Positions 8,895-47,217 are shown, numbered from the stretch's first letter. The stretch is 54,255 nt of DNA from Prevotellaceae bacterium (GCA_031267135.1 JAIRZQ010000183.1:1-54255); one strand, 5' to 3'. Made by a program: numbers and translations. Notes: generated by a model not told the origin, from the sequence alone.

Positions 8895-8938
8895 TTTTGT
8901 AAAATAATTTGTTATTTATTTGCAATACTCGACTGATA

Positions 8939-8987
8939 TGGCGAATACCCACTATTGCTGAGCGTTATTTTTATGATCTTCTCGCCA
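8939..8987. repeat. Short, degenerate member of the palindromic core-sharing family
   Basis: TGGCGA...TCGCCA arms around ATTGCTGAGCGTTATTT; core aligns with the elements at 19857 and 44418. Confidence 0.4.
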
Positions 8988-9093
8988 ACTTGCCACGCGT
9001 TTTCTTTCTTACTCCATAATTAAACTTGATAACTGTGCAAAATTATAATATTTTAAATCAAATAAAAAAACAAAAAAATTCTTGAAAATTCGA

Positions 9094-9101
9094 TATATTT
9101 G
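9094..9101 (+). promoter_or_regulatory. Bacteroidetes -7 box (TATATTTG) upstream of HD protein gene
   Basis: TATATTTG matches TAnnTTTG, 27 bp before the ATG. Confidence 0.55.
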
Positions 9102-9127
9102 CAGCCCGAAATAATTATACAAAAGAA

Positions 9128-9784
9128 ATGAACATAATAAATCCCGACTTGAAAAACCATATCGAACAGAATATTCTGCCGCGTTATAGCGCCTTTGACG
9201 GCGGACACAATATAAATCATGTTCAAAAAGTAATTGATGACAGTTTAGTTTTGGCGCAACAATTTGATGTTGACATAAATATGGTTTATGCAATAGCTGC
9301 CTATCACGATATTGGCATTGAAAAAGGCAGAGAATTACATCATATAGTTTCGGGAGAAATTTTAGCATCCGACTACAATCTTAAAAAATGGTTTTCGCAT
9401 CGGCAAATCGAAATCATGCGCGAAGCCGTAGAAGATCATCGAGCATCAAACAAACATGTGCCTCGCAGCATTTACGGAAAAATTGTTGCCGAAGCCGACC
9501 GCGACATTTCATTACAAACCATCTTGAACCGTACCATACAGTTTGGACTGAAAAACAATCCGGACAGCGATTTTGAATTGCAGTTCGAAAGGGCTTACAT
9601 TCACATAACCAATAAATACGGCGAAAACGGCTATTTAAAATTGTATCTCCACAGCGAAAAAAACGAAAAAGGGCTTGCTGAAGTCCGTGCTGCAATCAGC
9701 GACAAAACAACATTGCGCAAAATCTGCAAAGAAATCCTCAGCTGGCACGAAACTGCGCCAAACGACTGTCAGATTTGCTTGTAA
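9128..9784 (+). CDS. HD-domain phosphohydrolase-like protein
   Basis: H(N)INHVQKV...AAYHDIGIEKGRELHH...EADRDI pattern. Confidence 0.8.
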   Translation: MNIINPDLKNHIEQNILPRYSAFDGGHNINHVQKVIDDSLVLAQQFDVDINMVYAIAAYHDIGIEKGRELHHIVSGEILASDYNLKKWFSHRQIEIMREAVEDHRASNKHVPRSIYGKIVAEADRDISLQTILNRTIQFGLKNNPDSDFELQFERAYIHITNKYGENGYLKLYLHSEKNEKGLAEVRAAISDKTTLRKICKEILSWHETAPNDCQICL

Positions 9785-9802
9785 TCCGTAAGTTTACTAT
9801 GC

Positions 9803-10402
9803 TTACCATTTTCCCTTATGAACTTTTTCGGGTTTCCATTTATCCTTAGGCGATTCTTTCACGCTTGGATAGCCTATGGAAATAACGCATAGCGATTGGA
9901 TGTTATCGGGATGCTGAGTTGCTTTTTTTACGGCGCTCATTCTGCCGGCGTAAGGATAACTCGCCGTCCACACAGCGCCAAGTCCCATTGCTTCGGCTGC
10001 AAGCAGAATGTTTTCAGTAGCGGCAGCGCAATCAACGTACCAGTATGCGGATTTTGAAGTATCGGCACAAACAACTATTGCGAGCGTTGCCTGCTGCAAC
10101 ATTTTTGCGTATGGAAGCTCTGTGGCAAGCGAGTCTAACTCAGGTCTTTCGTTTATAACAATGAATTCCCACGGCTGAGTATTCATACCTGTGGGAGCAG
10201 CCATGCCGGCACGCAGCAGTTTTTCAATTTTTCCGGATTCTATCTGTTTGCCTTCGATGTAATTTCTTACGCTTTTGCGGTTTGCAATGTTTTCCAGCAC
10301 AATTTCTTCGGCTGATTTTGATGTTTTATCGTTGTTGCAGCAGGAAGTAAATGTGCCTGCTGCAAGCAGAACCATACCCGTACAGAAAATTTTTATTGTC
10401 AT
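9803..10402 (-). CDS. Nitroreductase family protein, predicted lipoprotein
   Basis: NRKSVRNYIEGKQI...AAPTGMNTQPWEFIVI...AMGLGAVWTASYP; N-terminal signal with TSCC lipobox. Confidence 0.88.
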   Translation of the reverse strand: MTIKIFCTGMVLLAAGTFTSCCNNDKTSKSAEEIVLENIANRKSVRNYIEGKQIESGKIEKLLRAGMAAPTGMNTQPWEFIVINERPELDSLATELPYAKMLQQATLAIVVCADTSKSAYWYVDCAAATENILLAAEAMGLGAVWTASYPYAGRMSAVKKATQHPDNIQSLCVISIGYPSVKESPKDKWKPEKVHKGKW

Positions 10403-10498
10403 AATTTATAATTTAAATTGTTTTATATGTTTCATTTATAATTATACATGCGATTTGGAATAGGATAGGGGATAAGCTTGTATACATACATTAAATTA

Positions 10499-10993
10499 TT
10501 AAGCCAAGTTATCATCCTTATCTTCATATTCTTCTTCCTGTTCATCATCCATCATAAAATCATCGTCATGCGACATTCCGAATAAGTCTTTTTCGACATC
10601 ATCCGTTATTTCATTGTCAACTTTGACTTCAACTTTTATGAGGTAACTGACATCGTCCGTATCAAGCATTATTGCGTGAAAAAAGTCGCCGTTTCCTTTT
10701 TCAACTTTCAGGATATAATCACGCCATCCTGATGGGTATTTTTCGTTCAACAGTTCAACAAGTTCCGGAGCAAGTTGATTATAATTAACAACAATTCTGC
10801 GTCGTACCGGCTGTTGATTTGTTGATGCCTTTACAGGTTGATTTTCAGTAATATCAATCTCTTTTTTATCTGCTTTTTCAACTGCCTGTTCTTTTATTTT
10901 TTTTTTCGGTTTTGATGGGGTTACAGCTTTTTTTGCAGATTTTTTTCCTGTTGTTTTATTTGTTTTTGTTTGTTTATTATTTGTTGTTGCCAT
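10499..10993 (-). CDS. Hypothetical charge-polarised protein (Lys-rich N-terminus, acidic C-tail)
   Basis: 164 aa: KKSAKKAVTPSKPKKKIKE N-terminus, compact YNQLAPELVELLNEKYPSGWRDYILKVEKGNGDFFHAIML core, DDDFMMDDEQEEEYEDKDD tail. Confidence 0.75.
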   Translation of the reverse strand: MATTNNKQTKTNKTTGKKSAKKAVTPSKPKKKIKEQAVEKADKKEIDITENQPVKASTNQQPVRRRIVVNYNQLAPELVELLNEKYPSGWRDYILKVEKGNGDFFHAIMLDTDDVSYLIKVEVKVDNEITDDVEKDLFGMSHDDDFMMDDEQEEEYEDKDDNLA

Positions 10994-11389
10994 AGTAATT
11001 TTTACTAAAAGTTGTGCAAGTTTAATATCATTTTTTTAATCGTAAAAGAATATTTTACCGTTTTTGATTGAATTTTATAGAAATAAAATCGTTTAATGCA
11101 GTTAATCAATGAGATAAATGATGATACACGTTTAGCAAATTAAAACAATTTAACAAATGTTTTAATTTGTCCTATAATTTATATTATGTTAAGTTTATAA
11201 TTTAACTATTATAATATAAGTTAGTTAGCTACTATTTTGGTATTTTATGAACGATAATAAGTTTTTTTTCTGTTTTTTATTTTTTTGTCTTTTAAATTCG
11301 TTATTTGCTACGTTTTTTACATTATTTGCGTATCGTATTGAAAATAATGTATAAATTTGTTGCAAAAATTAATTTAAATATAAAAAATT

Positions 11390-11929
11390 ATGAGAAAAAT
11401 ATTTTTATTATCATTTGTATTTCTGGCGCTGTCGGCAAATGCTCAAAGTAAAAATTTTTACGATTTTTCTGTAAAAACTATCGATGGAAACGATTTGTCA
11501 CTGTCGCAATTTAGAGGTAAAAAAGTTATGGTTGTGAATGTTGCATCCAAATGCGGTCTTACGCCTCAATATGCACAGTTACAGGCATTGTTTGAAAAAT
11601 ACGGGAACGATAATTTTGTTATTATCGGCTTTCCTGCTAATAATTTCGGCGCACAGGAACCCGGCACAAATGCCGAGATTAAGGAATTTTGCACGGCAAA
11701 TTACGGCGTTACTTTCCCGATGATGGAAAAGATCTCGATAAAGGGTGACGACATCACTCCTGTTTATAAATGGCTTACGCAAAAAGTCGAAAACGGTAAG
11801 GAAGATGCCGAAGTTACCTGGAATTTCCAAAAATTTTTGATTGATGAAAACGGAAATTGGGTAAAATCATTCTCGCCACGCACAAGTCCTGATGATGAGG
11901 AAATTATAAACTGGATTGAGAATAAATAA
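11390..11929 (+). CDS. Glutathione peroxidase family protein (Cys type), exported
   Basis: VMVNVASKCGLTPQYAQLQALFEKY, FPANNFGAQEPG, WNFQKFLID motifs; signal peptide. Confidence 0.92.
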   Translation: MRKIFLLSFVFLALSANAQSKNFYDFSVKTIDGNDLSLSQFRGKKVMVVNVASKCGLTPQYAQLQALFEKYGNDNFVIIGFPANNFGAQEPGTNAEIKEFCTANYGVTFPMMEKISIKGDDITPVYKWLTQKVENGKEDAEVTWNFQKFLIDENGNWVKSFSPRTSPDDEEIINWIENK

Positions 11930-11953
11930 AAATTATTTTCAATCAATTTTACA

Positions 11954-12391
11954 ATGAAAAATTTTCAAATAAGATTTTGCATTGCGGATGATTATGCAGC
12001 GATTTTTGAACTGCTAAAACAATTGTGGATTGATAAGCAATTAAACTGTAAAGTGCTTCAAGCTGTATATGAAAATGCTTTAAAATCAGACAGGCAAAAA
12101 CTAATTATTGGATTGATTGGCAATAAAATAGTAGGATTTTGTTCGTTGACAATTAATAATAATTTATGGCAAGGCGGAAATTTAGGATATATAGATGAAT
12201 TAATTGTAGATGAAAATTTTCGCGGACAAGGAATTGGTAAAACACTAATGGCTGAAATTACAAAAATTGCAAGGGAAAATAATTGTAAGCAAATAGAACT
12301 AAGTTCGGCATTTCATCGAAAAGAAGCACATCAATTTTATAAAAATTCAGGATACGAAAAACGAGCATATTTGTTTTCAAAAGCAATATAA
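11954..12391 (+). CDS. GNAT family N-acetyltransferase
   Basis: IDELIVDENFRGQGIGKTLMAEITKIAREN...HQFYKNSGYEKRAYLFSK. Confidence 0.88.
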   Translation: MKNFQIRFCIADDYAAIFELLKQLWIDKQLNCKVLQAVYENALKSDRQKLIIGLIGNKIVGFCSLTINNNLWQGGNLGYIDELIVDENFRGQGIGKTLMAEITKIARENNCKQIELSSAFHRKEAHQFYKNSGYEKRAYLFSKAI

Positions 12392-12406
12392 TACTTTTGA
12401 TTCTGT

Positions 12407-12459
12407 GAATACTTGCATCTCCCCTACCCTGATTGCATTTCATTGAAATTCAAGTATTC
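12407..12459 (+). terminator. Inverted repeat/possible terminator between the GNAT and RM genes
   Basis: GAATACTTG (12407-12415) and CAAGTATTC (12451-12459) followed by TGGTTTTTTCT; inner TTTCAttGAAA. Confidence 0.45.
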
Positions 12460-12495
12460 TGGTTTTTTCTAAACAGTAATGTATGAATCTTGACA

Positions 12496-15400
12496 TTATT
12501 CAAAGTCAATTTCGGTATTTGCGATTTTATCCAATTCTCCCGAAATGCTTTTTTTGATTTGTTCTATCTTTTTGTGTTTTTCGGCGATTTCTTTTTGAGT
12601 GGACAAATCAAGTTCGCCTTTGGAATTAATGGGTATCTTAATAGTTATATTAGAATTGAGTATAACATTTTTCATTACTTTTTTGTTATCCGTCCCTGTT
12701 GCAATATTTCTGAAATTAAGAACAGCATTAACAAAAGGCAAATAAACAGTTTTTTTATAATATTCTTTTACTGTCATTAAACCGCACACGTTTGTTATTG
12801 AAAATCTGCCATTACGATAAAATGTTGTTCCTGCATAAATCCCATCTGTCGTCCAAGTTATACCTTCACAATCAAAATCAAAAGAATTTAAGTAACCAAA
12901 TATTCCATTTTCTTTGGTATTTGAAGAATATATAGGATATTCGCCCGCATTATCTTTCAAATCTTTCTTTGAAATTACTCGCCCCCTTGTAAAATTAAAA
13001 ATATCGTTTATTGAAACTTCTTTATATTGATAATTTGTTTCTATTTCTACATTCAACTCTTCTATCTGTTTTTTATAATTATCTATTTTCGTTTTTAATT
13101 CGGAAACAAACTCAAATTTTTCAATTACTTCTTTCTGCTTTTCAATGTCAATATTTCCACTTTCATCAAAAGGAATTTCAATAGAAACATTTTGCATATT
13201 TTTCAACGAAGAACGCAAACCTCTATCAAAACCGTATTTATATTTTACTTTTTCGAGTTGCACCATTAAATATGCAGGCAAAATATCATCTGTTAATATT
13301 CTAATTGCACCGCAATGGTCGGTTGTAACAAATGGTGTGTGTTTTGGAACAAAATTATACTCAAAATCGCCGTCAATTCCCCAAAGCACAAAATTGTTTG
13401 AGAAATCAGAAATATTACTTTTGTTATGGTACGAAATCGGAGTTTTTACATTGGCACTATAAATCGGCATATCGCCGTTAATGTGTATGAGGTTTTTCTT
13501 TACCAATCTTTTGCCAATAAACAAGTCAAAATATTTCTTATCTGTTAAAAATATTTCTCTGTAACTATGTACTAACTTTTTTTTTTCAGCAACTTCACCT
13601 AATAAATCAGTATATTCGTTCAGTGTATCAGAAATGTCTTTTATTAGTTCTTTAAAATCAACAATATCAATAGTTTTATCTTCTTCAATAATTCCTAATT
13701 CAATTTGTTCTTCTTTACTCCACCAACGTTCAATGCTCCAATTTGTATCTGGGTCAAATTTCTCAATCGGTTGAATTTTACAGCGTTTATCATTGAATTT
13801 GAATGATTTTTTTGCATTTTTGAATTGGTTAAACCAATCTACCGATTCGCTTAAATCATCTTGCTCTATGTTAAAACGGTAAATATCACGACTTTCGCCA
13901 ATCTCGCTTACCAAATAAGTAAAAACAGGGTCTGTTTGTTTTTCTGCTTTATTCTGCTTTTTGGTTAGGCACAGAATATAGGTTTTTTTCTGGGTCGTAA
14001 AAAATGTTTTTAAAGGCAAAGAAATAATTCCGTCAATAAAACATTCGTCTAAAATATACTGCCGTAAGTTCTTATCGTTTTGTCGATTGAAAATACCATC
14101 AGGAACAACAACAAACGCTTTTCCACCCGGTTTCAATGCACGAACAATCCATTCCATAAACAAACCTTCAACGCCCATTGCGTTGATTTTGTAATGACTT
14201 TGAAGATTACTTTTTATTATTTCTTCTTTCAAATTACTGCTGCCCGTGGTTACATACGGAGGATTCGTAAGAATTAAATCTATTTTTCCTTCGTAACTTG
14301 TATCGCGCAATGTGCCAAGAATATTTTTTGTTTTTAACTCAAAAGTCTCATTGAAAAGTTTTGAAAATTCAGGAGTTATATCCGAATATTTGCGTATTAT
14401 ATCCGACAAATAAATCAACATATTTGCTTTGGCTAGAATAATCGTTTTTTGTTCCTCTTTATCAAAACCTTTATCTTTGCCGACAAGTGTAATTTTGCGA
14501 ACTAATTTTTTGTTTTTTACTTCGTAAAAATGTTCTATATTATTATTTATCAAAAGTGGTTCAAGTAAAAATTTTCCCACTCCACACGCAGGGTCGCAAA
14601 TCGTTATTCCCTCTTTAATCTCAGCTTCTGCCATTTTTACCATTGAGCGAACAACTTTCAATGGCGTAAAATATTGTCCCCAATTCTTTTTGCTAATACT
14701 TTCTTTCAAAAAAGTCTCAAACAATTTGCTTTTAAAATCTTTGTCAATATTTCGCAATTCTCCACCACCTTCTTTTTCATCTCTAAATTTTTTCAATATT
14801 TTGTGGAAAACTGTGCCAAATCCATCAACAGCTTCATCATCTTTACTAACGAAAATAGTCCCATTTATTATAGTAGTATTATCATCATAGGAAACAGGGA
14901 ACAAATCTTTTTTTATGTATTTGCGTACATTGTCGGCATAATATTTTAATACAATATTTTCATCTTCTTTTTCAAACATTGTCATTATAAAATCATAACT
15001 CAAATGTTCTTTCAAAATTCCCAAATCACTCAAATATTTGAATATAAACAACTCAACAAAACTATACAAGCAGTTTTCGGGTGTCGCACCCGCCGCCATC
15101 CACAAATCCTGCCAAACGCTTTTTGCTAATCTGGTAGGGTCTTTTAATCGAGGTTCACGAATTTGCGAATTATCTTTGTCTATGCTGTCTATAATTTGTT
15201 CTATCAACCTCTCTAAATCCTGATTTTTATAATCGAATGTTGTCTTTAATTCTTCGCCTTTTTCATCTAAAATTTTCTCACCATTAAAGACGTTAATCCA
15301 AATTGTATCAACACTATCGGTTAGAATTAAAATTTTGGCATTGAGAACTTGCGCTACATCTAAACCTTGTTTTAAGGTATCTTGTTTTTGCTTTTCGGTT

Positions 15401-34804: not shown

Positions 34805-36115
34805 ATGAAAAACATAATATATAGAGATATTTTTGCATGGCTTGCGATTATGAGCATATCGGTGATTTGCCTTACATCGTGTAAAGACGATGAAAATGAT
34901 GATTTGAACACGCCGATGAAAATTACAGCCGTTTACTTGGAAGATTCGCAGTCTTCGGTATCCGACAGGCTCGTGGAGTATGCCCGTTTGGGACAGACCC
35001 TGCGTCTGGAAGGTTCCGGATTCGGCGGCTTGCAGAAAATATATGTAAACGGACGTTCTACCTTTTTCAACAACGCATTGCTGACAGATGCCAACGTGCT
35101 TGTAAGCATTTCAGGCGAAACTCCTGTATTGGATGCAGACCCTGATATGAGAAATACAATTATTCTTGAAAAAAACGGAACTCAATACACATATCCGTTT
35201 GAAATACGGCTGGCTGCCCCTGCAATTACGGGCATCTCGCACACAATGCCTCAAGCGGGCGAAGAAATTACCGTTTACGGAACAGGTTTGCAGGGAATAG
35301 ATAAAGTAATATTTCCCGGCAATGTTGCAGTTACCGGCGGAATAATATCCGACAACGTGGATGGTAAGTACTGTATTGTTACAGTGCCTTCGGGAGTTTC
35401 TGACGATGGAGGTTCCCTGTTTATCGAAGGTATTAATGGCGGAGCATATTCTCCTGCTTATTTTAATTTCAAAAGAGGACTTTTTCACAATTTCGATAAT
35501 GTAAATAACTATTCGTGGGCATCGGGTATTGATGATGCAGGAACGCCTCTGACTGATATAATTCCTGCATTGGGAAGTCAGCCAAAATCACAGGGCGGAT
35601 ATCAGTGCTTCAATTTTAGCGGAGCAACCATTGCCGCCAATGCCGATAAGCGCTACTGGACTAACTCTGCCGACTGGCCTTCTGCACTGTTGAATGTAAT
35701 ACCCGGAAATACCGCCGCCGGTATGGCTGCCGTACAAATGGACATTTATGTCGAAGGAAACTGGAATTCGGGAATTATTCGTATGGTAATGGCTGACGGT
35801 TCGGGTACCGACAGATATTGCATGCTGTATCGTCCGTGGTACAGAAACGGAGCCGTTGTACAGTTCGAAAATCCGGGCTGCTGGTACACGATTACGCTTC
35901 CGTTCAGCGACAGCGATGATTATTCGGGAAAAACTTTTGCCGATGTTGTAGCTTCGATGACAAATGCAGCGTATAAGCAATCGGGACCATGGTTCCATAA
36001 TACAGGAATAACTGATGTTTTTGAACCTGATGCAACAGATGTAAAAGTTTACTTTGATAATTTGCGCGTAGTGCCGCTGGATACGCCTGTTTATGATGAA
36101 TTTGGGGATGAATGA
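34805..36115 (+). CDS. IPT/TIG-containing glycan-binding surface lipoprotein (SGBP-like)
   Basis: LTSCKDDENDD lipobox; two IPT/TIG-like segments; position between SusD and GH10. Confidence 0.82.
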   Translation: MKNIIYRDIFAWLAIMSISVICLTSCKDDENDDLNTPMKITAVYLEDSQSSVSDRLVEYARLGQTLRLEGSGFGGLQKIYVNGRSTFFNNALLTDANVLVSISGETPVLDADPDMRNTIILEKNGTQYTYPFEIRLAAPAITGISHTMPQAGEEITVYGTGLQGIDKVIFPGNVAVTGGIISDNVDGKYCIVTVPSGVSDDGGSLFIEGINGGAYSPAYFNFKRGLFHNFDNVNNYSWASGIDDAGTPLTDIIPALGSQPKSQGGYQCFNFSGATIAANADKRYWTNSADWPSALLNVIPGNTAAGMAAVQMDIYVEGNWNSGIIRMVMADGSGTDRYCMLYRPWYRNGAVVQFENPGCWYTITLPFSDSDDYSGKTFADVVASMTNAAYKQSGPWFHNTGITDVFEPDATDVKVYFDNLRVVPLDTPVYDEFGDE

Positions 36116-36145
36116 AATAATGTATAAGATTTTAAAATTAATAAT

Positions 36146-38320
36146 ATGAAATATTTTAAATTTATTTTCCCTGCAATATTGCTTGCAGGAAGTTTATTTT
36201 CGTGTAATGATGTTGACGAATTTAAATATGGCGATGGAAGAACTCCTTTAACCGATATAAAAAATATTCCGCTTTCATCTGACGAAAAACTTGGATTATA
36301 TGGAAATCTGACGGAATATATTCCATCCGGAATGTTACTGGGTTGTGGTATTGATATGGTTGATGGCTATATGAACAGCGAAACATATCGCAATTTGACA
36401 AATGCAAATTTTAACGCCGTAACGGCGGGCTATCACATGAAACACGGCGCTGTTGTAAGCAATACCGGTACATTGAATTTTCAGGCTGTCGATAATTTCG
36501 TTAACGCTTTACCTGCAAATATCGATTTGTTTGGACATACACTGGTATGGCACCAAAATCAGAATAAAACATATCTTAATCGTCTTATAGCTCCTGAAGT
36601 AATAGCTGCGCCCGGCGAAAATCTGTTGGATTTAAGCGCCTTGGAAGATGGAACATTTACAGGCTGGGGAAGGAATAATGCATCGGATATAACCTTATCA
36701 ACAGGCGAAGGACGCGATGGAGGAGATGCCGTACGCATGGAAACAACCACCGGCGGCAACGAGTGGGATACTCAACTTACTTCTCCCGAAATTCCCGCTG
36801 TAGCAGGACATACTTATGAACTTTCGTTTTGGATAAAATCCGAAGCGCCCGGTCAGGGCAGAGTTTCGTTTGCGGGAATGACAAACAACTACCCGTGGGT
36901 AAACGGGGGAGCATTGTTTGATACGGATGGAACATGGCAGGAAATAACTTACTCGGATTTGGAAGCTGCTGATGACGTTATAAAAATAGCTTTCGATTTG
37001 GGAAAAACAGCAGGCGTATATTATATTGATATTAACTCAATAAGCGTAACAGACCATGATGCAGAACCTGCCTATGTAAATTTGATTGCAAACGGTACTT
37101 TCGATGATAATTTGGATGGATGGGCAAAATGGAATGGCGCAGACAACTGTATGACGCAGGCGGCAGCAGTTGATGCATACGAAGGAACAGGAGCCTTACA
37201 AGTGGAAAACGCTACGGCAGGCAATGAATGGGACACTCAAATACATGTTGATTTCACTTCTACACTTGAAGAAGCCAAGAATTATGAAATTTCGTTTATG
37301 ATAAAATCTGATATTGATGCTACAATGAGATGCTCGACAACAGGAGGAACGACTCATTATCAAGGTACGCAGAACACAGGCGCTTCGTGGATTGAAATTG
37401 TATGGGAATTTGAAGGAAACGGCGCCGAAACAGGATTGAATTTTGACCTTGGAAAAACTGCTGCAACATATTACATTGATAACGTATTGGTAAGAGAAGT
37501 TATTGATGGCGGAGGCGGAACGGTTATCATAAATAAAACATGGGAACAGAAAGTACAGATTATTGACGATGCAATGCGCAACTGGATTACCGAAATGGTA
37601 AATCACTACAAAAATCGGGTACACGACTGGGATGTCGTTAACGAACCAATGACCGAAGGCGGAAATGTTCGCCCGGGACAGGAAGCTACAGAAGCGGCCG
37701 ACGAGTTCTATTGGCAATATTACCTTGGCAGCGACTATGCAGTTAAGGCATTTCAGTATGCACGCGCAGTATGCAATGCCGGCGATAAGCTGTTTATCAA
37801 CGATTATAATCTCGAATCGAATAACTCAAAACTCGAAGGAATCATAAATTATGTAAATTATATTGAGCAGCAGGGGCAAACGGTTGATGGCATTGGAACG
37901 CAGACTCATGCTTACATAAGGAATGCAGACGAATCCACAATAAACGAGATGAAATCCGGAATCGACAACATGTTCCAAAAATTGGCAGCTACGGGTAAGC
38001 TTGTCAAAGTGTCGGAATTGGATATTCGCGTGGGTTCTACTTCTCCAAGTCCCGACCTGCTGCAGCTTCAATCGGATATGTACCGTTATGTGATTGAATC
38101 GTATGTAAGAAATGTGCCTCAGGCGCAACGCTACGGAATTACAATATGGGGAATAAGCGATGGCAACAACGGCTCGTGGCTCGAAGATGATGCTCCCTGC
38201 GTTTGGGACAGCAATTATAATCGCAAGCCTGCGTATATGGGTGTTGCAAACGGACTGGCAGGATACGATGTAAGCGCCGATTGGGATTACGGTTATATGA
38301 CTGACTTGCAAAATCAGTAA
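36146..38320 (+). CDS. GH10 endo-1,4-beta-xylanase with two carbohydrate-binding modules inserted in the catalytic domain
   Basis: N-terminal GH10 half (VTAGYHMKHGAV...LFGHTLVWHQN), tandem CBM4/22-like repeats (GGNEWDTQL... twice), C-terminal half with VHDWDVVNEP (acid/base) and KVSELDIRVGS (nucleophile). Confidence 0.92.
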   Translation: MKYFKFIFPAILLAGSLFSCNDVDEFKYGDGRTPLTDIKNIPLSSDEKLGLYGNLTEYIPSGMLLGCGIDMVDGYMNSETYRNLTNANFNAVTAGYHMKHGAVVSNTGTLNFQAVDNFVNALPANIDLFGHTLVWHQNQNKTYLNRLIAPEVIAAPGENLLDLSALEDGTFTGWGRNNASDITLSTGEGRDGGDAVRMETTTGGNEWDTQLTSPEIPAVAGHTYELSFWIKSEAPGQGRVSFAGMTNNYPWVNGGALFDTDGTWQEITYSDLEAADDVIKIAFDLGKTAGVYYIDINSISVTDHDAEPAYVNLIANGTFDDNLDGWAKWNGADNCMTQAAAVDAYEGTGALQVENATAGNEWDTQIHVDFTSTLEEAKNYEISFMIKSDIDATMRCSTTGGTTHYQGTQNTGASWIEIVWEFEGNGAETGLNFDLGKTAATYYIDNVLVREVIDGGGGTVIINKTWEQKVQIIDDAMRNWITEMVNHYKNRVHDWDVVNEPMTEGGNVRPGQEATEAADEFYWQYYLGSDYAVKAFQYARAVCNAGDKLFINDYNLESNNSKLEGIINYVNYIEQQGQTVDGIGTQTHAYIRNADESTINEMKSGIDNMFQKLAATGKLVKVSELDIRVGSTSPSPDLLQLQSDMYRYVIESYVRNVPQAQRYGITIWGISDGNNGSWLEDDAPCVWDSNYNRKPAYMGVANGLAGYDVSADWDYGYMTDLQNQ

Positions 38321-38355
38321 AGTATTAGATTAAATCGGTCAAATTCAGTAATTTT

Positions 38356-38388
38356 GAAGAAAGTTGTCATATTGCGGCAACTTTCTTC
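38356..38388 (+). terminator. Hairpin at end of xylan locus
   Basis: GAAGAAAGTTG-TCATATTGCGG-CAACTTTCTTC, 11-bp perfect stem; weak T-tract (TGTTTAT). Confidence 0.65.
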
Positions 38389-38592
38389 TGTTTATCGGCT
38401 TTATATAAGTCCTGTAAAAGCTTACACTTATGATTGCGGCTTATAAAACTGAAACCAATAAGATCAATCACCGGATAGCTCGGTATCGGCTTGCCGAATA
38501 AGGCTTATATGGTAAACGCACAATCGAACAAATTGTCAATAAATACTGTTTGTTTTTGAAAATAAAAATTGCGCTATACCCTGACGATATGC

Positions 38593-39159
38593 TTATTTTC
38601 CGTTCCATCGATAGCTTTCGATATTTGCGTTCGACAGGTTTAACACCCGCTCAACAACAGTTTTTGCAATATCATCGACAGTTTGCGGTTTGCTGTAAAA
38701 TGAAGGCGCTGCCGGACAGACAATTCCGCCTGCAAGCGTTATTTGTTCCATGTTGCGAATATGTACCAGATTTAACGGCGCTTCACGGGTAACTGTAATC
38801 AACCTTCTGCGTTCTTTTAGCATTACATCTGCGGTTCGTGAAATAAGGTCACTTGCGTATCCGTTTGCAATGCGGGCAAGCATGCCCATCGAGCATGGAA
38901 TAACAATCAGCGTGCCGTAATCGGACGAGCCGGAAGAAAAAGGAGCGAACAAATCGTCGTTTTCGTATATACTGATATGCTTGTAGCGATTTATATCTTC
39001 ACAGGTCTCGTAATCGAAAACCTGCTTGCCTGTCGGTGTAAATATGACGGCAATTTCATCAAACTGCGAATAGTGCGCATCAAGCATGTCGAGCATTGTT
39101 TTTGCATATATCTGTCCGCTTGCGCCTGTTATTCCTATTATTATTTTTTGTTTTTTCAT
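38593..39159 (-). CDS. ubiX: UbiX-family flavin prenyltransferase
   Basis: KIIIGITGASGQIYAKTMLDML...PCSMGMLARIANGYASDLISRTADVMLKERRRLITVTREAPL. Confidence 0.93.
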   Translation of the reverse strand: MKKQKIIIGITGASGQIYAKTMLDMLDAHYSQFDEIAVIFTPTGKQVFDYETCEDINRYKHISIYENDDLFAPFSSGSSDYGTLIVIPCSMGMLARIANGYASDLISRTADVMLKERRRLITVTREAPLNLVHIRNMEQITLAGGIVCPAAPSFYSKPQTVDDIAKTVVERVLNLSNANIESYRWNGK

Positions 39160-39367
39160 CTTCGTAAAATTATTTTTGCAAATGTATATATTTATTTAAG
39201 TACATAACAAAATTAAAGACATTAATATTAATTTGATTAGAGGATTAAACAAAACATTTGCAATATGTTAATATTTTATTGATATGTACTAAAATAATCT
39301 GTTTGTTGTTATTTATGAAAACCCTTAACTTTATAGTACAAAGTTAAAGGTTCTTTAATTATTAAAG

Positions 39368-40423
39368 TTACCTTTCATTTTTTACAAATTTCACAAATTC
39401 ATCCATAACGTCACTCCATTTGGAATCGTTCCAAATTTTCTTGCCATCGTCATTTATTAATTCAAAATTGTGTCCTCGTCCAGGCATCGGATGCATTTTA
39501 TAATTTGTTTTATTTGCAAATCCGAAATATATCGGTAATAATTCGCAGGCTAAACTGTGATAATCTCTTGTTCCGTAAGTAACAAAAACAGGCTGTTTCA
39601 AATTTGCCAATATTTCTACAACCGATTGCGAAAAACTTTTCCATGTTGCAGGCAAATCGCCGCTCCAATTATCAGGAACATTTGTTGATTGAACCATATA
39701 CATCCAACTGTTCCAATAATTTTCTATTTGCTGTTGCGCTTCATCTTCGGTTATTTGTCCTTTTATTGCTTCTGCGCGTAATTCTTGCATTATGCCTGCG
39801 TATCGGCCAAAAGGACTCGAACTCGAAAAGCCAATGGCTTTTATAGTTTCATTCTCTGATGCCAATCGTGCTGCAACATAGGCGCCCTGTGAATGTCCAT
39901 AAACATATATGCTGTCACTGTACACCAAATTTTCTCCTATCAAACAGTCAATAACTTCATTTGCACGCTCAACATAAGTTTCGACTACATTGCGCTTCAT
40001 GTACGTCTTGTCATAATCGTAAGGATTTTTCGATTTTACGTAAGCGTACTGATTATTCAAATTTTCTACATTCACAACAGGCGGCGTATTGGGTTGTGAT
40101 ATTTCTACAACGTTAAACCGGTTAAAAACCGTTTTGTTGAAAATGCTAAAATGATTTGCATCCAAATAGCCATTGTTATCAACTATTAAAGGCATTGGCA
40201 AAGAACCCTGAATAAATAAAAGTAAAGGTTTTTTTGAGTCAACAGTATCGTATTTCACAAAATGAATTGTATCTGTTGCGGTTGTCAAGCAAAATAATTT
40301 GAGATTTAACTGTTTAATGTTTTCTGTCGTAAGTTTATTTTGCGCAAATGTAATATTGCAGCAAAACGCCAAACATAAACATAACACTAACTTTGTAATG
40401 TTTTTGTTAATTGTAATCATCAA
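39368..40423 (-). CDS. Exported alpha/beta-hydrolase (dienelactone hydrolase-like)
   Basis: Signal peptide; KKPLLLFIQGSLPMPL; SIYVYGHSQGAYVAARLA (GxSxG nucleophile elbow); GRGHNFE His. Confidence 0.78.
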   Translation of the reverse strand: MMITINKNITKLVLCLCLAFCCNITFAQNKLTTENIKQLNLKLFCLTTATDTIHFVKYDTVDSKKPLLLFIQGSLPMPLIVDNNGYLDANHFSIFNKTVFNRFNVVEISQPNTPPVVNVENLNNQYAYVKSKNPYDYDKTYMKRNVVETYVERANEVIDCLIGENLVYSDSIYVYGHSQGAYVAARLASENETIKAIGFSSSSPFGRYAGIMQELRAEAIKGQITEDEAQQQIENYWNSWMYMVQSTNVPDNWSGDLPATWKSFSQSVVEILANLKQPVFVTYGTRDYHSLACELLPIYFGFANKTNYKMHPMPGRGHNFELINDDGKKIWNDSKWSDVMDEFVKFVKNER

Positions 40424-40437
40424 ATCTTGCGTTTTAT

Positions 40438-42015
40438 TTACTGATTATCAGGTATCTGAAATCTTTTATTGTTGCTTTTTTGTTTATTTGAATCTAAAAT
40501 ATCATGTATTTTTTCCTTTGTAACGCTATCAACAGGAATGCCGAACACATCTTTCTGGTTGGTTATATTAGCACGCCGTTTCATTTCTTCTACAAAATCA
40601 TCCGTGTAAAGTTCTTTCAACTCATAATCATAAGGTTCTTCTTTTAACGGACAAAGAAAAATATAACCATCGTAAAAATCTTCATAATTTCCATACAAAT
40701 AACCAAATACAAGACCATCATCGTAAGGCTCTTTTCCAAAAAGACTGTTTTTCAAATCAAAAGCAATAGGAGTATTACCTGTTTTTTCAAAAACATAGTC
40801 GAACAATCCGTACCTGACTTTACCAAGCCAATTATGGTTATCGTTTTTCATTGAGTGAGAATTGGTTGCAATAATCCGCATTTGCGGATTATTTTCTGTT
40901 AATTGCTTTAATAATGTTCCTGCCGTTATTCTTATACTTGGTGAGGATTTTTGTGCATGACCTTGCCCAATTATAAACAAGCAATTTCTATCGTCGCTTT
41001 TATTTTGTAAATACGAATAAACAATTTCAGCCATTGTACTGTCTCTGTCTCGTCTTGTGAAAGACACATAGTCATCACGAGTTTGAATGTTGTTCCAGTT
41101 ATCATGAAAATCAGCTGGAATTATTTTTATCTTATTATTTGTATGCTGATTAATTTTCCAAACTTCCTGAATAAATTCATACATTCCTTTATCCTGCCAA
41201 CCATATATATCATCGTCTCCTAAAATTTTTAATATCAACGCGGTATCTAATACATTGTTTTGCAAAAATTCATCAAACAAAGGTTGACTAAAATGCGACA
41301 ATTCCATAAAAACCGTACCGCAATTTTTGACAAAATCAGGCTCATGAATTAGGCTTTTCAAAAAAATCCACGAAATTTGCCGCTTATGAAATTCTCCATA
41401 TATTACTAATGGATACTCACTTAATTTTTCAAGTAAATATGTTTTTGGATTTTTACCATATTGTGTTAGATAGTTGATAAAAGCAATTGTATCAGTCGAA
41501 ACAACTTTTTGGCGATAATATTGTCGTAACCCGTTTAAAAACATGACGCTGTTATTTTCGATATATTGTTTTATTTTTGGGGGATTTTCTGCATCGCATA
41601 ACCCTTCGGCAGATCCCAACCATTTTCCATTTTCCAATTGAGAAAACCCAATCAAATACACATCTGGCGTACCCGGTTCTTTCCTGAATACCAAACCTAT
41701 AGAATCTTTGTATGTTATCACTTGTTCTATTTCGGAATTTAACAATAATTCTGCCGCTTTTTGTGTATATGGCTGCTTTGATGACTGTGGTTTAGCAGCA
41801 ATCAATTCAGTGTAAATTGTATCATATTTTCCTTCAATCCACAAATGCATACGTGCAACATAATTTTCTAAAGGCGAAACGCAGGGATTTTCATAACCAA
41901 TGTCTTTTACCTGTTTGCCAACGTGAATTATTTTATAATCATTACTCAAATTTTGAGCAAAAACAGAAAGCCCTAAAAAGGATAAACATAAGAAAATTAA
42001 TAATCTATTTTTCAT
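40438..42015 (-). CDS. Exported protein resembling the Tiki/EreA/ChaN superfamily
   Basis: Signal peptide; LVIYGEFHKRQISWIFL, CGTVFMELSHFSQPLFDEFL, RDRDSTMAEIVYSYL, CLFIIGQGHAQ motif series. Confidence 0.55.
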   Translation of the reverse strand: MKNRLLIFLCLSFLGLSVFAQNLSNDYKIIHVGKQVKDIGYENPCVSPLENYVARMHLWIEGKYDTIYTELIAAKPQSSKQPYTQKAAELLLNSEIEQVITYKDSIGLVFRKEPGTPDVYLIGFSQLENGKWLGSAEGLCDAENPPKIKQYIENNSVMFLNGLRQYYRQKVVSTDTIAFINYLTQYGKNPKTYLLEKLSEYPLVIYGEFHKRQISWIFLKSLIHEPDFVKNCGTVFMELSHFSQPLFDEFLQNNVLDTALILKILGDDDIYGWQDKGMYEFIQEVWKINQHTNNKIKIIPADFHDNWNNIQTRDDYVSFTRRDRDSTMAEIVYSYLQNKSDDRNCLFIIGQGHAQKSSPSIRITAGTLLKQLTENNPQMRIIATNSHSMKNDNHNWLGKVRYGLFDYVFEKTGNTPIAFDLKNSLFGKEPYDDGLVFGYLYGNYEDFYDGYIFLCPLKEEPYDYELKELYTDDFVEEMKRRANITNQKDVFGIPVDSVTKEKIHDILDSNKQKSNNKRFQIPDNQ

Positions 42016-42018
42016 TTT

Positions 42019-43512
42019 TTATAAAGGGTTTAGTTCATTAATAAACTGCGGTGCAAACTTACAGCGCGGATCAGGAAAATCCCAGTTTTCGTCGCCGTAG
42101 GCTTTCAACACATCTACGTAACATTTATTATGATACGAATAACATTCGTCAAAGATAGTACATTTTTTACAAATACTTGCATCTCTGAAACTTTCTTTTT
42201 TAGGAAACGCAAGTTCAAGCGCATGCGGCGAATTCCAAACTTCCTTAATTGTTTGTTTTGTTAAATCGCCAATAATAAAACGAGGATTCCAATACATTTG
42301 TTCGCAAAGGGTAACCTGTCCATCTGGCAAAACAAAAATATTGGAATAATTCGCCGAGCATCTTGAACCTCTAAAATTTCGGCTACCTCCTTCCTCAGCA
42401 AAATATCTTGTACCCGTATCAAGTGTTGCTTCAATAGTAATTGATGAGTATTGTTTTACATCTGCTATCCATTTGTTTATTTTAACAATAGATTCTTTAG
42501 AAGTTCTTATTTCATCAAAATTTCCCCTGCTGTACATCGACTTAAAACCGACTCTTATATCCCATTTTCTTAAATTTTTAAAATCCAAAAGAAAATTATG
42601 TAAACTCTCTAAATTTTCAATACTGTCGTTGTATTTGGTAAGCACAGTAGCCACTTTAAAAGCAATATTGTGGTTATCTAAAAAAGTAATGGTTTGTTTT
42701 ATATTATCGGCATAATCCGATTTAACCTTAAGTATTTGCACTAATTTGTTTGGATTAACAGAATCCAAAGAGATTTGTACCGGAATATCGTATGTTTTTA
42801 ATGCAATTATATCTTCTTCACAAATGGGTACTTTTGTTGAAATTAAAGATTCCTTAAAACCGTTTTCAAGCAATAAATCAAGCAATTCTTTCCATTGCCA
42901 ATAAAGAAAAAATTCTCCTCCTGTAATAGTTATATCTTGAAATTGTAGTTGTTTTGCCTCTTGTATTATTTCTTTTATTCTATCGAAGGATAACATTTGT
43001 GATTTTACGGACTTATTTGCGTAACAGTAAACGCAGTCGGTAACACAAGTATTATTAATCATCAAAACCATAGTTAAAGGAGCAACGATGAAACGGTCGT
43101 GCCGCAAGTCCAATTCATTGTATGCAAACTGTTCCGGTTTATAATCAATAGTAGGTGCAAACGACTTGTCGGCATCAATAATTATGTTTTTTGGGAAAAA
43201 ATTTTCTGTTCCACCATAGTTGCCCATAACGATTTCGTAGTTGTTGATAAAAGGTTGAATCAAATTTTCAACATCCGATTCAATCATATCCAAAAAATAT
43301 GACAATTCTTTAATTGCATCCTGTAATGCAATCGGTTTTGAAAAAAAAGATAAAATCATGGCATAAACAGGATGAATCCTGCTCAACCATTTTGCATCAA
43401 CAAATTCAGAATATTTACCGTCAACAAAAGTTGGCGCTAATATGTAACTCCTTTTTAAATCGTGTCGTATTTTATAAAAATGATTAAAAACTATTTTCTT
43501 TTCTGTATTCAT
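42019..43512 (-). CDS. Radical SAM/SPASM peptide maturase with RRE/PqqD-like N-terminal region
   Basis: CVTDCVYC (CX3CX2C) cluster motif; TITGGEFFLYW; C-terminal SPASM Cys pattern CSANYSNIFVLPDGQVTLC...CKKCTIFDEC...KCYVD...DPRC. Confidence 0.88.
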   Translation of the reverse strand: MNTEKKIVFNHFYKIRHDLKRSYILAPTFVDGKYSEFVDAKWLSRIHPVYAMILSFFSKPIALQDAIKELSYFLDMIESDVENLIQPFINNYEIVMGNYGGTENFFPKNIIIDADKSFAPTIDYKPEQFAYNELDLRHDRFIVAPLTMVLMINNTCVTDCVYCYANKSVKSQMLSFDRIKEIIQEAKQLQFQDITITGGEFFLYWQWKELLDLLLENGFKESLISTKVPICEEDIIALKTYDIPVQISLDSVNPNKLVQILKVKSDYADNIKQTITFLDNHNIAFKVATVLTKYNDSIENLESLHNFLLDFKNLRKWDIRVGFKSMYSRGNFDEIRTSKESIVKINKWIADVKQYSSITIEATLDTGTRYFAEEGGSRNFRGSRCSANYSNIFVLPDGQVTLCEQMYWNPRFIIGDLTKQTIKEVWNSPHALELAFPKKESFRDASICKKCTIFDECYSYHNKCYVDVLKAYGDENWDFPDPRCKFAPQFINELNPL

Positions 43513-43543
43513 GGTTATTATATTTTTTATTTTAAAAATTAAA

Positions 43544-43586
43544 AAACTAATTGAGGATATTTACATATAATATCCTCAATTAGTTT
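43544..43586 (-). terminator. 18-bp perfect-stem intrinsic terminator/attenuator between precursor and maturase genes
   Basis: Minus strand AAACTAATTGAGGATATT-ATATGTA-AATATCCTCAATTAGTTT followed by TTTAATTTTT; lies 32 bp upstream of the radical SAM start. Confidence 0.85.
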
Positions 43587-43678
43587 AAATACTGTTTGTG
43601 TTACCAAAGATGTTGTCTGTTGATAATACTTGTAACATAAATTGTGTACTTTCTGCAAAACACAAACTTGGCAGTGCT

Positions 43679-43888
43679 TTATGTACTTTGAGTGCATGTG
43701 CCGATGCCGCTAGCGCAAATGCCATCTCCATCAGTGCAGAAACCTGCTCCAACCTCACGATTCCTTACACAAACTTGGGTTCCACAACCAACTGTTAATG
43801 CACTTTGACCACCTTTTAGCACAGATAGTTCTTCTACTTTTAAGACTTCTTTATTTCCTGTTAAGTCTTTGAATTTTACTTTTTTCAT
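43679..43888 (-). CDS. GG-leader natural-product (RiPP) precursor peptide, 69 aa, Cys-rich core
   Basis: MKKVKFKDLTGNKEVLKVEELSVLKGG|QSALTVGCGTQVCVRNREVGAGFCTDGDGICASGIGTCTQST; leader resembles the GG-Bacteroidales precursor class; next to a radical SAM/SPASM gene. Confidence 0.82.
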   Translation of the reverse strand: MKKVKFKDLTGNKEVLKVEELSVLKGGQSALTVGCGTQVCVRNREVGAGFCTDGDGICASGIGTCTQST

Positions 43889-43954
43889 ATAAATAATTTT
43901 TATTTATGGCTAGCTTTTAATTAGGAGTAGCCGTTATCCTTTTTAATTTTTTTA

Positions 43955-43962
43955 CAAAAGTA
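43955..43962 (-). promoter_or_regulatory. Bacteroidetes -7 box (TACTTTTG) of the precursor gene
   Basis: Plus-strand CAAAAGTA = minus TACTTTTG (TAnnTTTG), about 65 nt upstream of the precursor ATG. Confidence 0.6.
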
Positions 43963-43995
43963 AGGAATAATTTTTTACGAACATCTACAATTTGT

Positions 43996-44031
43996 GTCTA
44001 AAAAACGGACAAAAATGATTTATTTTTAGAC
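43996..44031. promoter_or_regulatory. Dyad upstream of the precursor promoter (candidate operator)
   Basis: GTCTAAAAA (43996-44004) / TTTTTAGAC (44023-44031), no T-tract after it on the minus strand. Confidence 0.5.
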
Positions 44032-44042
44032 AGTAAATGTTT

Positions 44043-44366
44043 TTAGTGCTGATTTTTATTTGTTTTTCTGAGTAAAACGGCATTTTCGGGCAAAGTATCG
44101 GGAATTTCGGTTTCGTTCAAATAAACTATAAGTATATATTCGTAACTATTGTTTATAATATTTGTATAATGGTTTTCAATAAAATCGTAACCTAAAACAT
44201 CGGATATTTTTTGCAATAATTGAACGTCAACACTTGCGCTTTCGTAAATATTATAAACGGCTCCTCGCGAAAGATTAATCCGTCTTGCAAACTCAGTAAC
44301 AGAAAGCGAGCGCTGCTTCACTTTTTGTTTTATAATACTGCCGATATGTATTTTATCGCTTTTCAT
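44043..44366 (-). CDS. XRE-family regulator, likely regulator of the RiPP cassette
   Basis: IHIGSIIKQKVKQRSLSVTEFARRINLSRGAVYNIYESASVDVQLLQKISDVLGYDFIENHY. Confidence 0.85.
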   Translation of the reverse strand: MKSDKIHIGSIIKQKVKQRSLSVTEFARRINLSRGAVYNIYESASVDVQLLQKISDVLGYDFIENHYTNIINNSYEYILIVYLNETEIPDTLPENAVLLRKTNKNQH

Positions 44367-44417
44367 TATTCTTCTGTTTGCGAATGTTTAAAATGAAATA
44401 ATCGTGAACTGATATTT

Positions 44418-44531
44418 GTTATCTATGGCTCTGGGATTGCCTTGCAGTACAAATGAAAAAGCTCACGATTGCTCGCGAGCGTTGCCTTTCATTCCTGTAC
44501 TGCTATCTAAATTTCCCAGATTTAAGATAAC
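44418..44531. repeat. About 114-bp segmented palindrome (conserved-core family)
   Basis: Paired blocks GTTATCT/AGATAAC, TCTGGGA/TCCCAGA, GCAGTACA/TGTACTGC, ATGAAA/TTTCAT around core AGCTCACGATTGCTCGCGAGCGTT; 52 bp upstream of the XRE ATG. Confidence 0.8.
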
Positions 44532-44855
44532 AAGAATAAGCTAACGCTTTATTTATTTTCTGTTTTATTCGTTTATGTCATAATAATATCATTTGTTTTA
44601 GCAAAGTTATAATTTTATTTTTAATGTATAATAATCTACATTAAAATTTTCTCATGTTGAGTTGATTTATCATTATAACTTTTAATCTATCAATTGCAAA
44701 AGCACAAAACATCAAAATTTTTTCAAAATAAAATTATAGAATAATATATTAATAATAAAGAAGTTATATGGCAAATCTATAGTTTTTGTCATGTAGTAAA
44801 ATATTTATATTGCAGATTGATAAATCATTTTTACTTTTGTGAAAAATATTTGGAC

Positions 44856-45464
44856 ATGGAAAAGATAAAAAAAATGTTTTGCATTTGCATTGCATTTATT
44901 TTTGCTGCCGGCTGCACGAAATCATCATTATCGTTTACCGACAGCGAAATTGAATTAATAAACAAATATTCGCAACAAAAAATGCGGGTATTAATTTATA
45001 ATAATGAAAGTGATTCCTTGATTTTGCGGCAGCAAGCCAAAGAATTTTCAATCGCCGATTTGCAAAGCGATATTTTCAAAAGCCTGAAAGCGCAAATGCT
45101 GCTTACAGTGCAGGATACGACAAACACAGGCGTAGGCATTGCGGCTCCTCAGGTTGGAATTTCAAGACGTTTGATTGCTGTTCAGCGTTTCGACAAGCCC
45201 GGCGAACCGTTTGAGTTTTATGCCAATGCTTATATTGTTTACTTTTCCGAAGACAGGCAGACAGGAGCCGAAGGCTGCCTGTCGATTCCGAATATCAGAG
45301 GAAATGTGGAACGTTCGCAAACCGTAGCTGTAAAGCATGTTGACATGGAAATGCTAAAAACCCGCATTGATACCGTTTCGGGGTTTACTTCGGTGATTTT
45401 TCAGCACGAGATCGACCATCTCAATGGCATTTTGTTTATTGACAAGATTCATCCCGATGCATGA
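44856..45464 (+). CDS. Peptide deformylase-family protein with a lipoprotein signal
   Basis: GVGIAAPQVG, EGCLSIP and HEIDHLNG motifs; N-terminus MEKIKKMFCICIAFIFAAGC; start chosen at the internal ATG. Confidence 0.85.
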   Translation: MEKIKKMFCICIAFIFAAGCTKSSLSFTDSEIELINKYSQQKMRVLIYNNESDSLILRQQAKEFSIADLQSDIFKSLKAQMLLTVQDTTNTGVGIAAPQVGISRRLIAVQRFDKPGEPFEFYANAYIVYFSEDRQTGAEGCLSIPNIRGNVERSQTVAVKHVDMEMLKTRIDTVSGFTSVIFQHEIDHLNGILFIDKIHPDA

Positions 45465-47217
45465 CTTTTACGATAAAAGATTATGGTTGCCGACTTCAAA
45501 GAAAGAAACTGACGGCTTGGGATGGGAAGACATTGATATAATATTTTTCAGCGGAGACGCCTATGTCGATCATCCGGCTTTCGGTTCTGCGATTATAGCG
45601 CGTATCTGGCAAAATATGGGATTCAAAGTAGCAATAGTTCCTCAGCCGAACTGGCGCGACGATTTGCGAGATTTCAGAAAGCTCGGCTGTCCGCGTCTGT
45701 TTTTTGCTGTTTCGGCAGGAAACATGGACAGTATGGTAAATCATTATACAGCCAATAAGCGCCTGCGAAGTAACGATGCATACACGCCTGATGACAAATC
45801 AGGCTTTCGTCCTGATTATTCGGTAACGGTTTACACAAATATTCTGAAAAAACTTTACCCTTCGATACCTGTTATAATCGGCGGAATAGAAGCCTCATTA
45901 CGCCGGCTTACTCATTACGATTACTGGAAAAACGAACTTATGCCGAGCATTCTGATAGACAGCCAAGCCGATTTGCTGGTTTACGGAATGGGCGAAAAGG
46001 CGGCAAAGGAAATAGCTATTCGAATTGCCAAAGGCGAGAAAACGTACATGCTTACAAATATTCCTCAAACAGCCTATAAAACAAAAAACATACCGGCAGA
46101 CGAAAATATTTTATACCTTAATTCTTACGAAAAATGCAGAAATGACAGGAAAAAATTTGCCGAAAATTTTCGCCTGACCGAAGAAGAGAGCAACGCGTTT
46201 TCGCCTCGTACCATAATTGAACCTGTCGGCGATTACAGTACAGTTATAAATCCTCCGTACGCTGTAATGACCGAAAATGAAATAGACGAAGTTTACAGTT
46301 TGCAGTTTACCCGAATGCCGCATCCGCGCTATGGAAATAAACGTATTCCGGCTTACGAAATGATTCGACATTCGGTAAACATTCATCGCGGATGCTTTGG
46401 CGGATGCAGCTTTTGTACAATATCGGCTCATCAGGGTAAATTTATAACAAACCGCAGCGAAACATCAATCCTGAACGAGATAGCCAAAATCACTGAAATG
46501 TCGGATTTCAAAGGATACATAAGCGATATAGGAGGTCCGTCGGCAAACATGTACGGTATGGGCGGAAAAAATATGAACATTTGTAAAAAATGTCGTCGAG
46601 CCTCTTGTTTATTTCCATCCGTATGCAGCAATCTTAACAGCGACCACAGTAAACTTACTGCAATTTATAAGAAAATACAGTCGTTGCCTGAAATAAAAAA
46701 AGCAAGTATAGGCAGCGGTATTCGATATGACCTGTTTATGAATGAAGATGGATTTATTGATAAAAATTGCGAAAAATATTTTAATCAGTTAGTGAAACAT
46801 CATGTATCGGGACGATTGAAAGTTGCGCCCGAACACACATCCGACAAGGTTTTGAAAGCCATACGCAAGCCATCTTTTGAGCTGTTTAAAGTGCTGAAAA
46901 ATGAATTTGACATGATAAATAAGACTGAAAAGCTAAATCAGCAAATCATACCGTACTTTATATCATGTTTGCCTCACTGTACTTTTGATGATATGAAAAA
47001 ACTGTCGGTTGAAACAAAAAACATGCATCTAAAACTCGAGCAGGTTCAGGCATTCACGCCAACTCCAATGACTTTGGCTTCTGCAATTTACTATACAGGT
47101 ATTGACCCGTACACGGGCAAAAAAGTTTTTACAGCCAGAACAGCAGAAGAACGAAAAAAACAAACCGAACAGTTTTTTTTGCACGGCAGTCAAAATAAAC
47201 ATAAAACAGGTAAATAA
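45457..47217 (+). CDS. YgiQ-family radical SAM protein
   Basis: MHDFYDKRLWLPTSKKETDGLGWEDIDIIFFSGDAYVDHPAFG; HRGCFGGCSFCTISAHQGKFI; start reassigned, overlapping the PDF stop by 8 bp. Confidence 0.93.
   Translation: MHDFYDKRLWLPTSKKETDGLGWEDIDIIFFSGDAYVDHPAFGSAIIARIWQNMGFKVAIVPQPNWRDDLRDFRKLGCPRLFFAVSAGNMDSMVNHYTANKRLRSNDAYTPDDKSGFRPDYSVTVYTNILKKLYPSIPVIIGGIEASLRRLTHYDYWKNELMPSILIDSQADLLVYGMGEKAAKEIAIRIAKGEKTYMLTNIPQTAYKTKNIPADENILYLNSYEKCRNDRKKFAENFRLTEEESNAFSPRTIIEPVGDYSTVINPPYAVMTENEIDEVYSLQFTRMPHPRYGNKRIPAYEMIRHSVNIHRGCFGGCSFCTISAHQGKFITNRSETSILNEIAKITEMSDFKGYISDIGGPSANMYGMGGKNMNICKKCRRASCLFPSVCSNLNSDHSKLTAIYKKIQSLPEIKKASIGSGIRYDLFMNEDGFIDKNCEKYFNQLVKHHVSGRLKVAPEHTSDKVLKAIRKPSFELFKVLKNEFDMINKTEKLNQQIIPYFISCLPHCTFDDMKKLSVETKNMHLKLEQVQAFTPTPMTLASAIYYTGIDPYTGKKVFTARTAEERKKQTEQFFLHGSQNKHKTGK

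Follow-up and report, generated by a model that had tools for sequence, protein, structure and literature searches.

A radical SAM peptide cassette with exported TIKI-like and alpha/beta-hydrolase-like proteins on a discrete insert in a Bacteroidales genome

Among the RiPP matches in Bacteroidales, radical SAM loci rank first by frequency (PMC10352776). The Bacteroidales GG-leader loci surveyed there, which have TIGR04149 precursors, combine a GG leader and a SPASM maturase with a C39 exporter, and the words Tiki and hydrolase are absent from the main text of that survey. Homologues of Tiki/TraB proteins, alpha/beta hydrolases, and erythromycin esterases have been reported beside graspetide (ATP-grasp) loci in branch 2 of the candidate phyla radiation bacteria and, in another case, in Gammaproteobacteria, and leader cleavage, maturation, and resistance were proposed as roles of these hydrolases (PMC8939145). 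The grasp-with-spasm system (TIGR04192/TIGR04193) has a GG leader, a SPASM protein, and an exported neighbor with the TIKI motif, together with an ATP-grasp ligase. Among solved structures, the closest relatives of the proteins described below, by fold or sequence, are two RiPP SPASM maturases, SuiB (streptide) and SkfB (sactipeptide), and, by fold, three enzymes with an E-x-H...E...H pattern, EreC, Bcr135, and VvRRSP.

The window analyzed here is a stretch of 54,255 nucleotides from a Prevotellaceae bacterium (GCA_031267135.1 JAIRZQ010000183.1), whose genome is a 2.6-Mb Bacteroidales draft. Five minus-strand open reading frames at 39368-44366 were all found where the preliminary description had placed them. 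The gaps that it reported, 3 bp from the maturase gene to the TIKI-like gene and 14 bp from there to the hydrolase gene, are exact. The features are as follows.

39197-44815, no strand assigned: entire insert between ubiX and def, holding all five genes (nucleotide homology breakpoints)
39368-40423, minus strand: exported alpha/beta-hydrolase-like protein, 351 aa (weak family score; signal peptide and GHSQG by eye)
40438-42015, minus strand: exported TIKI/EreA/ChaN-superfamily hydrolase, 525 aa (motif, fold matches, homologues; signal peptide by eye)
42019-43512, minus strand: 497-aa radical SAM/SPASM peptide maturase, its N-terminal region possibly RRE-like (Pfam, NCBIfam, Foldseek)
43544-43586, minus strand: perfect hairpin of 18 bp with a T run after it, in the precursor-maturase gap (folding)
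43679-43888, minus strand: precursor, 69 aa, a 27-aa leader ending in GG and a 42-aa core with five Cys (TIGR04149 near-match, homologues)
43995-44032, no strand assigned: inverted repeat TGTCTAAAAA..TTTTTTAGACA in the XRE-precursor gap (sequence inspection and folding)
44043-44366, minus strand: XRE-type regulator, 107 aa (Pfam HTH_3, 29.0 bits, cut-off 23)

The cassette shares the GG leader and the SPASM maturase with the surveyed Bacteroidales loci. It differs from them in having a TIKI-like protein and an alpha/beta-hydrolase-like protein (or an S41 peptidase) in the place where relatives have an outer-membrane beta-barrel protein and a C39 exporter. The hydrolase classes and their conceivable roles are those of the graspetide loci, whereas the radical SAM maturase and the Cys-rich core are not; no match to an ATP-grasp ligase was obtained with Pfam or NCBIfam in any of the five window proteins, which also separates the cassette from the grasp-with-spasm system. 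A search of the open-licence literature for TIKI or erythromycin esterase proteins with radical SAM RiPPs returned only the graspetide study (PMC8939145). The impression that this partner pair was new to RiPP loci therefore has to be narrowed: these hydrolase classes are known beside graspetides, but we found no report of them beside radical SAM GG-leader peptides in that literature. The peptide-maturase pair is of a known kind, and, as far as we found, the recurrent TIKI partnership had previously been noted only for a different peptide class.

The same genome also contains a grasp-with-spasm graspetide locus of its own (L072, contig C138, 14000-22338), which encodes a GG-leader peptide and a 400-aa protein that is exported. 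The latter has the E-x-H, E, and G-x-G-H motifs and is TIKI-like by motif only, the profile comparison being weak. A relative of this protein follows a maturase remnant in another locus (L031).

The window DNA is 90% identical to that of a relative (G083, L132) on both flanks of the cassette. The match ends at 39196 and restarts at 44816, with a 3-bp overlap at the rejoining ends. In G083, ubiX and def are divergent and 35 bp apart, and the five genes are absent; in the other two relatives (G128 and G117; loci L133 and L134), the two genes are likewise divergent, about 150 bp apart, and meet at the same junction with none of the five genes between them. Because ubiX and def are adjacent in three relatives, we consider the five genes to be one discrete insert, and since all three lack it, a gain in the lineage of the window is a simpler reading than loss in the three relatives. 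The insert of about 5.6 kb holds no further recognizable gene, and no integrase or transposase gene was recognized among its genes. Its G+C content is 31.5%, compared with 40.9% in the 15 kb to the left and 36.7% to the right, but other stretches of the window are equally low. An Rfam search of 38300-45500 gave no element at E 0.5. To the left of the insert, a protein read by eye as a GH10-type xylanase bearing a signal peptide (36146-38320) lies beside a TIG-type lipoprotein (34805-36115), and the 34805-38320 region is probably a xylan-use locus.

The precursor consists of the leader MKKVKFKDLTGNKEVLKVEELSVLKGG and the core QSALTVGCGTQVCVRNREVGAGFCTDGDGICASGIGTCTQST, and the Cys pattern after LKGG is exactly C-x4-C-x10-C-x6-C-x6-C, as described at the outset. 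Against TIGR04149 (GG_sam_targ_CFB), the family check suggested for it, the precursor scored 24.0 bits (E 2.6e-5), just under the cut-off of 25. The context expected of that type is present here and in the homologous loci, in that the leader ends in GG and the gene adjoins a radical SAM maturase gene. Precursor homologues occur in L015, L016 (two), L017, and L023. A core motif, C-x-S-G-[ILVM], is found in eight of nine cores, which are not fully independent of one another; the mean count in shuffles was 0.18, and none of 10,000 shuffles reached eight. A second motif, C-x3-[VI]-C, is present in six of the nine. Between the window and L015, pN/pS is 0.22 for the leader, 0.57 for the core, and 0.22 for the maturase. 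A longer precursor, read by a frameshift past 43679, was considered and rejected because the L015 precursor stops at the identical place. In L016, a third precursor-like reading frame lies between the TIKI and S41 genes (4158-4404); its frame breaks at a G run, past which an alternative frame carries more Cys codons. This break may be a sequencing error, decay, or a programmed shift.

The maturase exceeds the Pfam and NCBIfam cut-offs for Radical_SAM (PF04055, 60.3 bits), SPASM (PF13186, 48.1 bits), and TIGR04085 (32.9 bits). The predicted CX3CX2C motif is present as C156-x3-C160-x2-C163 and is invariant across 22 homologues, and seven further invariant Cys (385, 403, 448, 451, 457, 464, and 484) bear out the SPASM-type pattern. 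Its best Foldseek match is SuiB over 403 columns, and SkfB is also among the matches; the model was built from a shallow alignment and is of low confidence (pLDDT 57). The window maturase is about 16-20% identical to SuiB and SkfB, which act on different precursors, and it reaches no equivalog score. No Pfam family matched the N-terminal region as an RRE/PqqD-like domain. Searches for maturase homologues gave 10 positive genomes among 300 of the family (some with remnants), 12 among 393 of the order, and seven loci in GTDB contigs; beyond the order, none was found at E 1e-60 in a phylum-wide sample of 247 genomes. The named records that contain such loci comprise Bacteroidales MAGs classified under Prevotellaceae, Dysgonomonadaceae, and Paludibacter, together with Marinifilum; the isolate names of the MAGs look like those of termite-gut samples. 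A GG-leader, Cys-bearing reading frame adjoins most intact maturase homologues with sufficient flanking sequence, and, as far as sampled, homologues of the 69-aa reading frame do not lack a radical SAM neighbor. The homologous GG-leader frames, the common core motif, and the near-TIGR04149 score together uphold the proposal of a RiPP-like cassette.

In the maturase tree, the window, L015, L016, L017, and L023 form one clade (100/99). A precursor-type reading frame, the maturase gene, and a TIKI-like gene follow one another in the same order in all of these loci. The fourth gene varies between loci. The TIKI-like gene is downstream of the maturase gene in all five members of the clade and also in two loci that fall elsewhere in the tree, L004 and L114, so the TIKI link has been gained or lost more than once. 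This recurrence supports the suggestion that the TIKI-like protein is part of the system. Most other maturase loci have an outer-membrane beta-barrel protein in the TIKI slot, followed by a C39 exporter. L114 is a complete version of the cassette, where a single run of genes encodes XRE, precursor, maturase, an RDD-TIKI fusion (identified by hhalign, E 5e-19), C39 exporter, and HlyD.

The TIKI-like protein comprises an N-domain (1-185) and a catalytic domain (186-525). E208-x-H210, E238, and H353, which form a 2Glu/2His site, are invariant across 11 homologues. The protein itself scores 22.3 against Pfam PF04187 (cut-off 27.7), and its homologues in L015 (32.5) and L004 (32.6) pass. In Foldseek, the eight best matches belong to the TIKI/Ere superfamily (best E 5.4e-4, low TM, from a model of pLDDT 50 built on a shallow alignment), and EreC is among the further matches; no solved relative was found by sequence. 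VvRRSP and Bcr135 have the same E-x-H, E, H arrangement and the same 28-residue H-to-E distance (PMC6254334), and EreC shares this pattern. The window protein differs from all three in its own 185-residue N-domain (weak NTF2-like matches), its signal peptide, and its RiPP neighborhood. The Tiki/EreA/ChaN assignment made initially is therefore right, on the strength of the invariant motif, the homologues that pass PF04187, and the fold matches. In L131, a TIKI-like gene (51% identity) accompanies an S41 peptidase gene and a radical SAM gene of another class. The run there (7600-13834) consists of that maturase with its precursor, the S41 peptidase, a 149-aa protein, the TIKI-like protein, and the remnant of an alpha/beta hydrolase. 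TIKI-like homologues also occur away from any radical SAM gene (L073, L074, L075, and L076), so they have roles outside RiPPs as well.

The two domains of the TIKI-like protein have different affinities. Identity in the N-domain (residues 1-110) tracks the maturase, being 71-74% to L015 and L131, unlike that of the catalytic domain, which is nearer to L021 and L023. The catalytic-domain tree contains the groups of the window with L021 and L023 (100/100) and of L015, L016, and L131 (99/98). In AU tests, the former group is rejected by the N-domain (p 0.009), as is a group of the window, L015, and L131 by the catalytic domain (p 3e-6); the groups were named after the trees had been seen, and these p-values are somewhat generous. 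The trees indicate that the catalytic domain is swapped between loci. Its pN/pS between the window and L015, 0.51, is near that of the core and unlike those of the leader and the maturase. Because of the exchange, this value compares non-orthologous domains and is suggestive only. We read the catalytic domain as the part that probably works on the variable core.

The fourth gene product was labeled an alpha/beta hydrolase at first, and this label stands in part: the GHSQG nucleophile motif is visible by eye, but the best family score, to NCBIfam EstD (E 4.7e-9), is 35.8 bits against a cut-off of 600, and Pfam matches are below the cut-offs. A 78% identical homologue follows a TIKI gene in L126 (G040), and a remnant follows one in L131 (G057). 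The fourth slot is held instead by an S41 peptidase in L016 and L023.

From these observations, we propose that the insert carries a RiPP cassette whose exported hydrolases act on the exported core, a reading to which we give a probability of roughly two in three. The XRE protein, whose assignment holds by its HTH_3 score and whose homologues adjoin the precursor in L017 (37%) and L114 (38%), would regulate expression. The inverted repeat next to its gene is a candidate operator, possibly of XRE, or a candidate terminator; as a conserved operator it was rejected because it was not seen in the other loci. The hairpin between the precursor and maturase genes is a probable attenuator. It has counterparts at the equivalent place in L015-L019, L023, L106, and L114, and was found in nine of nine intact loci folded, with differing sequences. 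Its presence in all of them fits partial termination, through which more precursor than maturase would be made. The maturase would grip the leader through its putative RRE-like region and modify the Cys-rich core, most likely by joining Cys sulfur to a backbone or side-chain carbon near C-x-S-G. A C39 peptidase-exporter encoded elsewhere would then cut after GG and deliver the core to the periplasm, where the TIKI protein and its partner hydrolase (alpha/beta here, S41 in relatives) would hydrolyze the exported peptide. We consider trimming or maturation after export somewhat likelier than protection of the producer.

One alternative, which we consider less likely than not, is protection: the TIKI and alpha/beta-hydrolase-like proteins would destroy the finished peptide in the periplasm of the producer, and their stand-alone copies would be orphan resistance genes. 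In L021 (10001-11644), two decayed copies of a maturase 3' end are separated by unrelated genes, and the TIKI gene immediately downstream is intact, which fits protection better than maturation. The four TIKI homologues without a radical SAM gene, the alpha/beta hydrolase genes of L127 and L128, which are solitary or in tandem, the exchange of the catalytic domain, and the erythromycin esterases within the superfamily (PMC6254334) point in the same direction. However, the TIKI gene directly follows the maturase gene and, in L114 and L004, lies ahead of the exporter gene, an arrangement that is also compatible with a maturation step, the S41 peptidase in the fourth slot points to proteolytic processing, and degradation of a product in a compartment that it must cross would be costly.

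It is likewise possible, but not our preference, that the alpha/beta hydrolase is a passenger and that the system consists of XRE, precursor, maturase, and TIKI only. The hydrolase gene is not beside TIKI in L016, L021, and L023 and is solitary in other members of the genus. Against this, it lies within the insert boundaries, 14 bp from the TIKI gene, it comes after TIKI in L126 (and in L131, there as a remnant), and its pN/pS of 0.20 indicates strong constraint. Its place in the pathway, proposed in the preliminary description, is thus favored by location and weakened by the solitary copies and the S41 replacements.

That one of the two exported proteins cuts the leader of an exported precursor, replacing a C39 exporter, is unlikely. 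As noted initially, the window has no peptidase-ABC exporter: C39 (PF03412) was found only on contigs C130, C44, and C52 of the genome. Neither the insert nor the neighborhood of L023 contains one, and members of the TIKI superfamily can be endopeptidases (PMC6254334). However, the window leader has Leu at -4, -7, and -12 before the cleavage site, hydrophobic residues occupy these positions in nine of nine leaders, and this is the recognition pattern of C39/PCAT exporters (PMC10885120). The leader lacks its own signal peptide, and the L114 and L004 loci have a C39 exporter in addition to their TIKI-like proteins. Since the genome encodes three C39 exporters and the recognition residues are kept, leader removal by the exported hydrolases is unneeded, and this part of the earlier proposal has become less likely. 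The three exporters are in apparent peptide loci of their own (L069 on C130, L070 on C44, and L071 on C52), and the C44 and C52 loci also encode radical SAM maturases, relatives of TIGR04463/CefB. Supply of a C39 exporter in trans from elsewhere in the genome would be the economical reading. Exporter-less loci of the Bacteroidales GG-leader type are on record: two of the nine detailed in the survey have no C39 exporter (PMC10352776).

Finally, a non-peptide radical SAM enzyme that does not use the 69-aa product is very improbable: the maturase reaches no NCBIfam equivalog cut-off (best, mycofactocin maturase, 68.7 versus 265 bits), but GG-leader Cys-rich frames adjoin its homologues across the order, the precursors have a common core motif, and the fold matches include SuiB and SkfB.

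To our knowledge, few natural substrates are known in bacteria for the TIKI/EreA/ChaN proteins, a large enzyme superfamily. Here, a TIKI-like protein is tied to an identifiable peptide, which makes its substrate directly testable. As a speculation that we hold only tentatively, the cassette could represent a radical SAM RiPP class in which TIKI is a dedicated periplasmic maturation peptidase, its catalytic domain swapped between loci to match the core, and C39 exporters are borrowed from other RiPP loci of the genome. The cassette also offers a candidate substrate motif, C-x-S-G, for a whole maturase clade, and an example of an exporter-less RiPP that may use the exporters of other systems in the genome.
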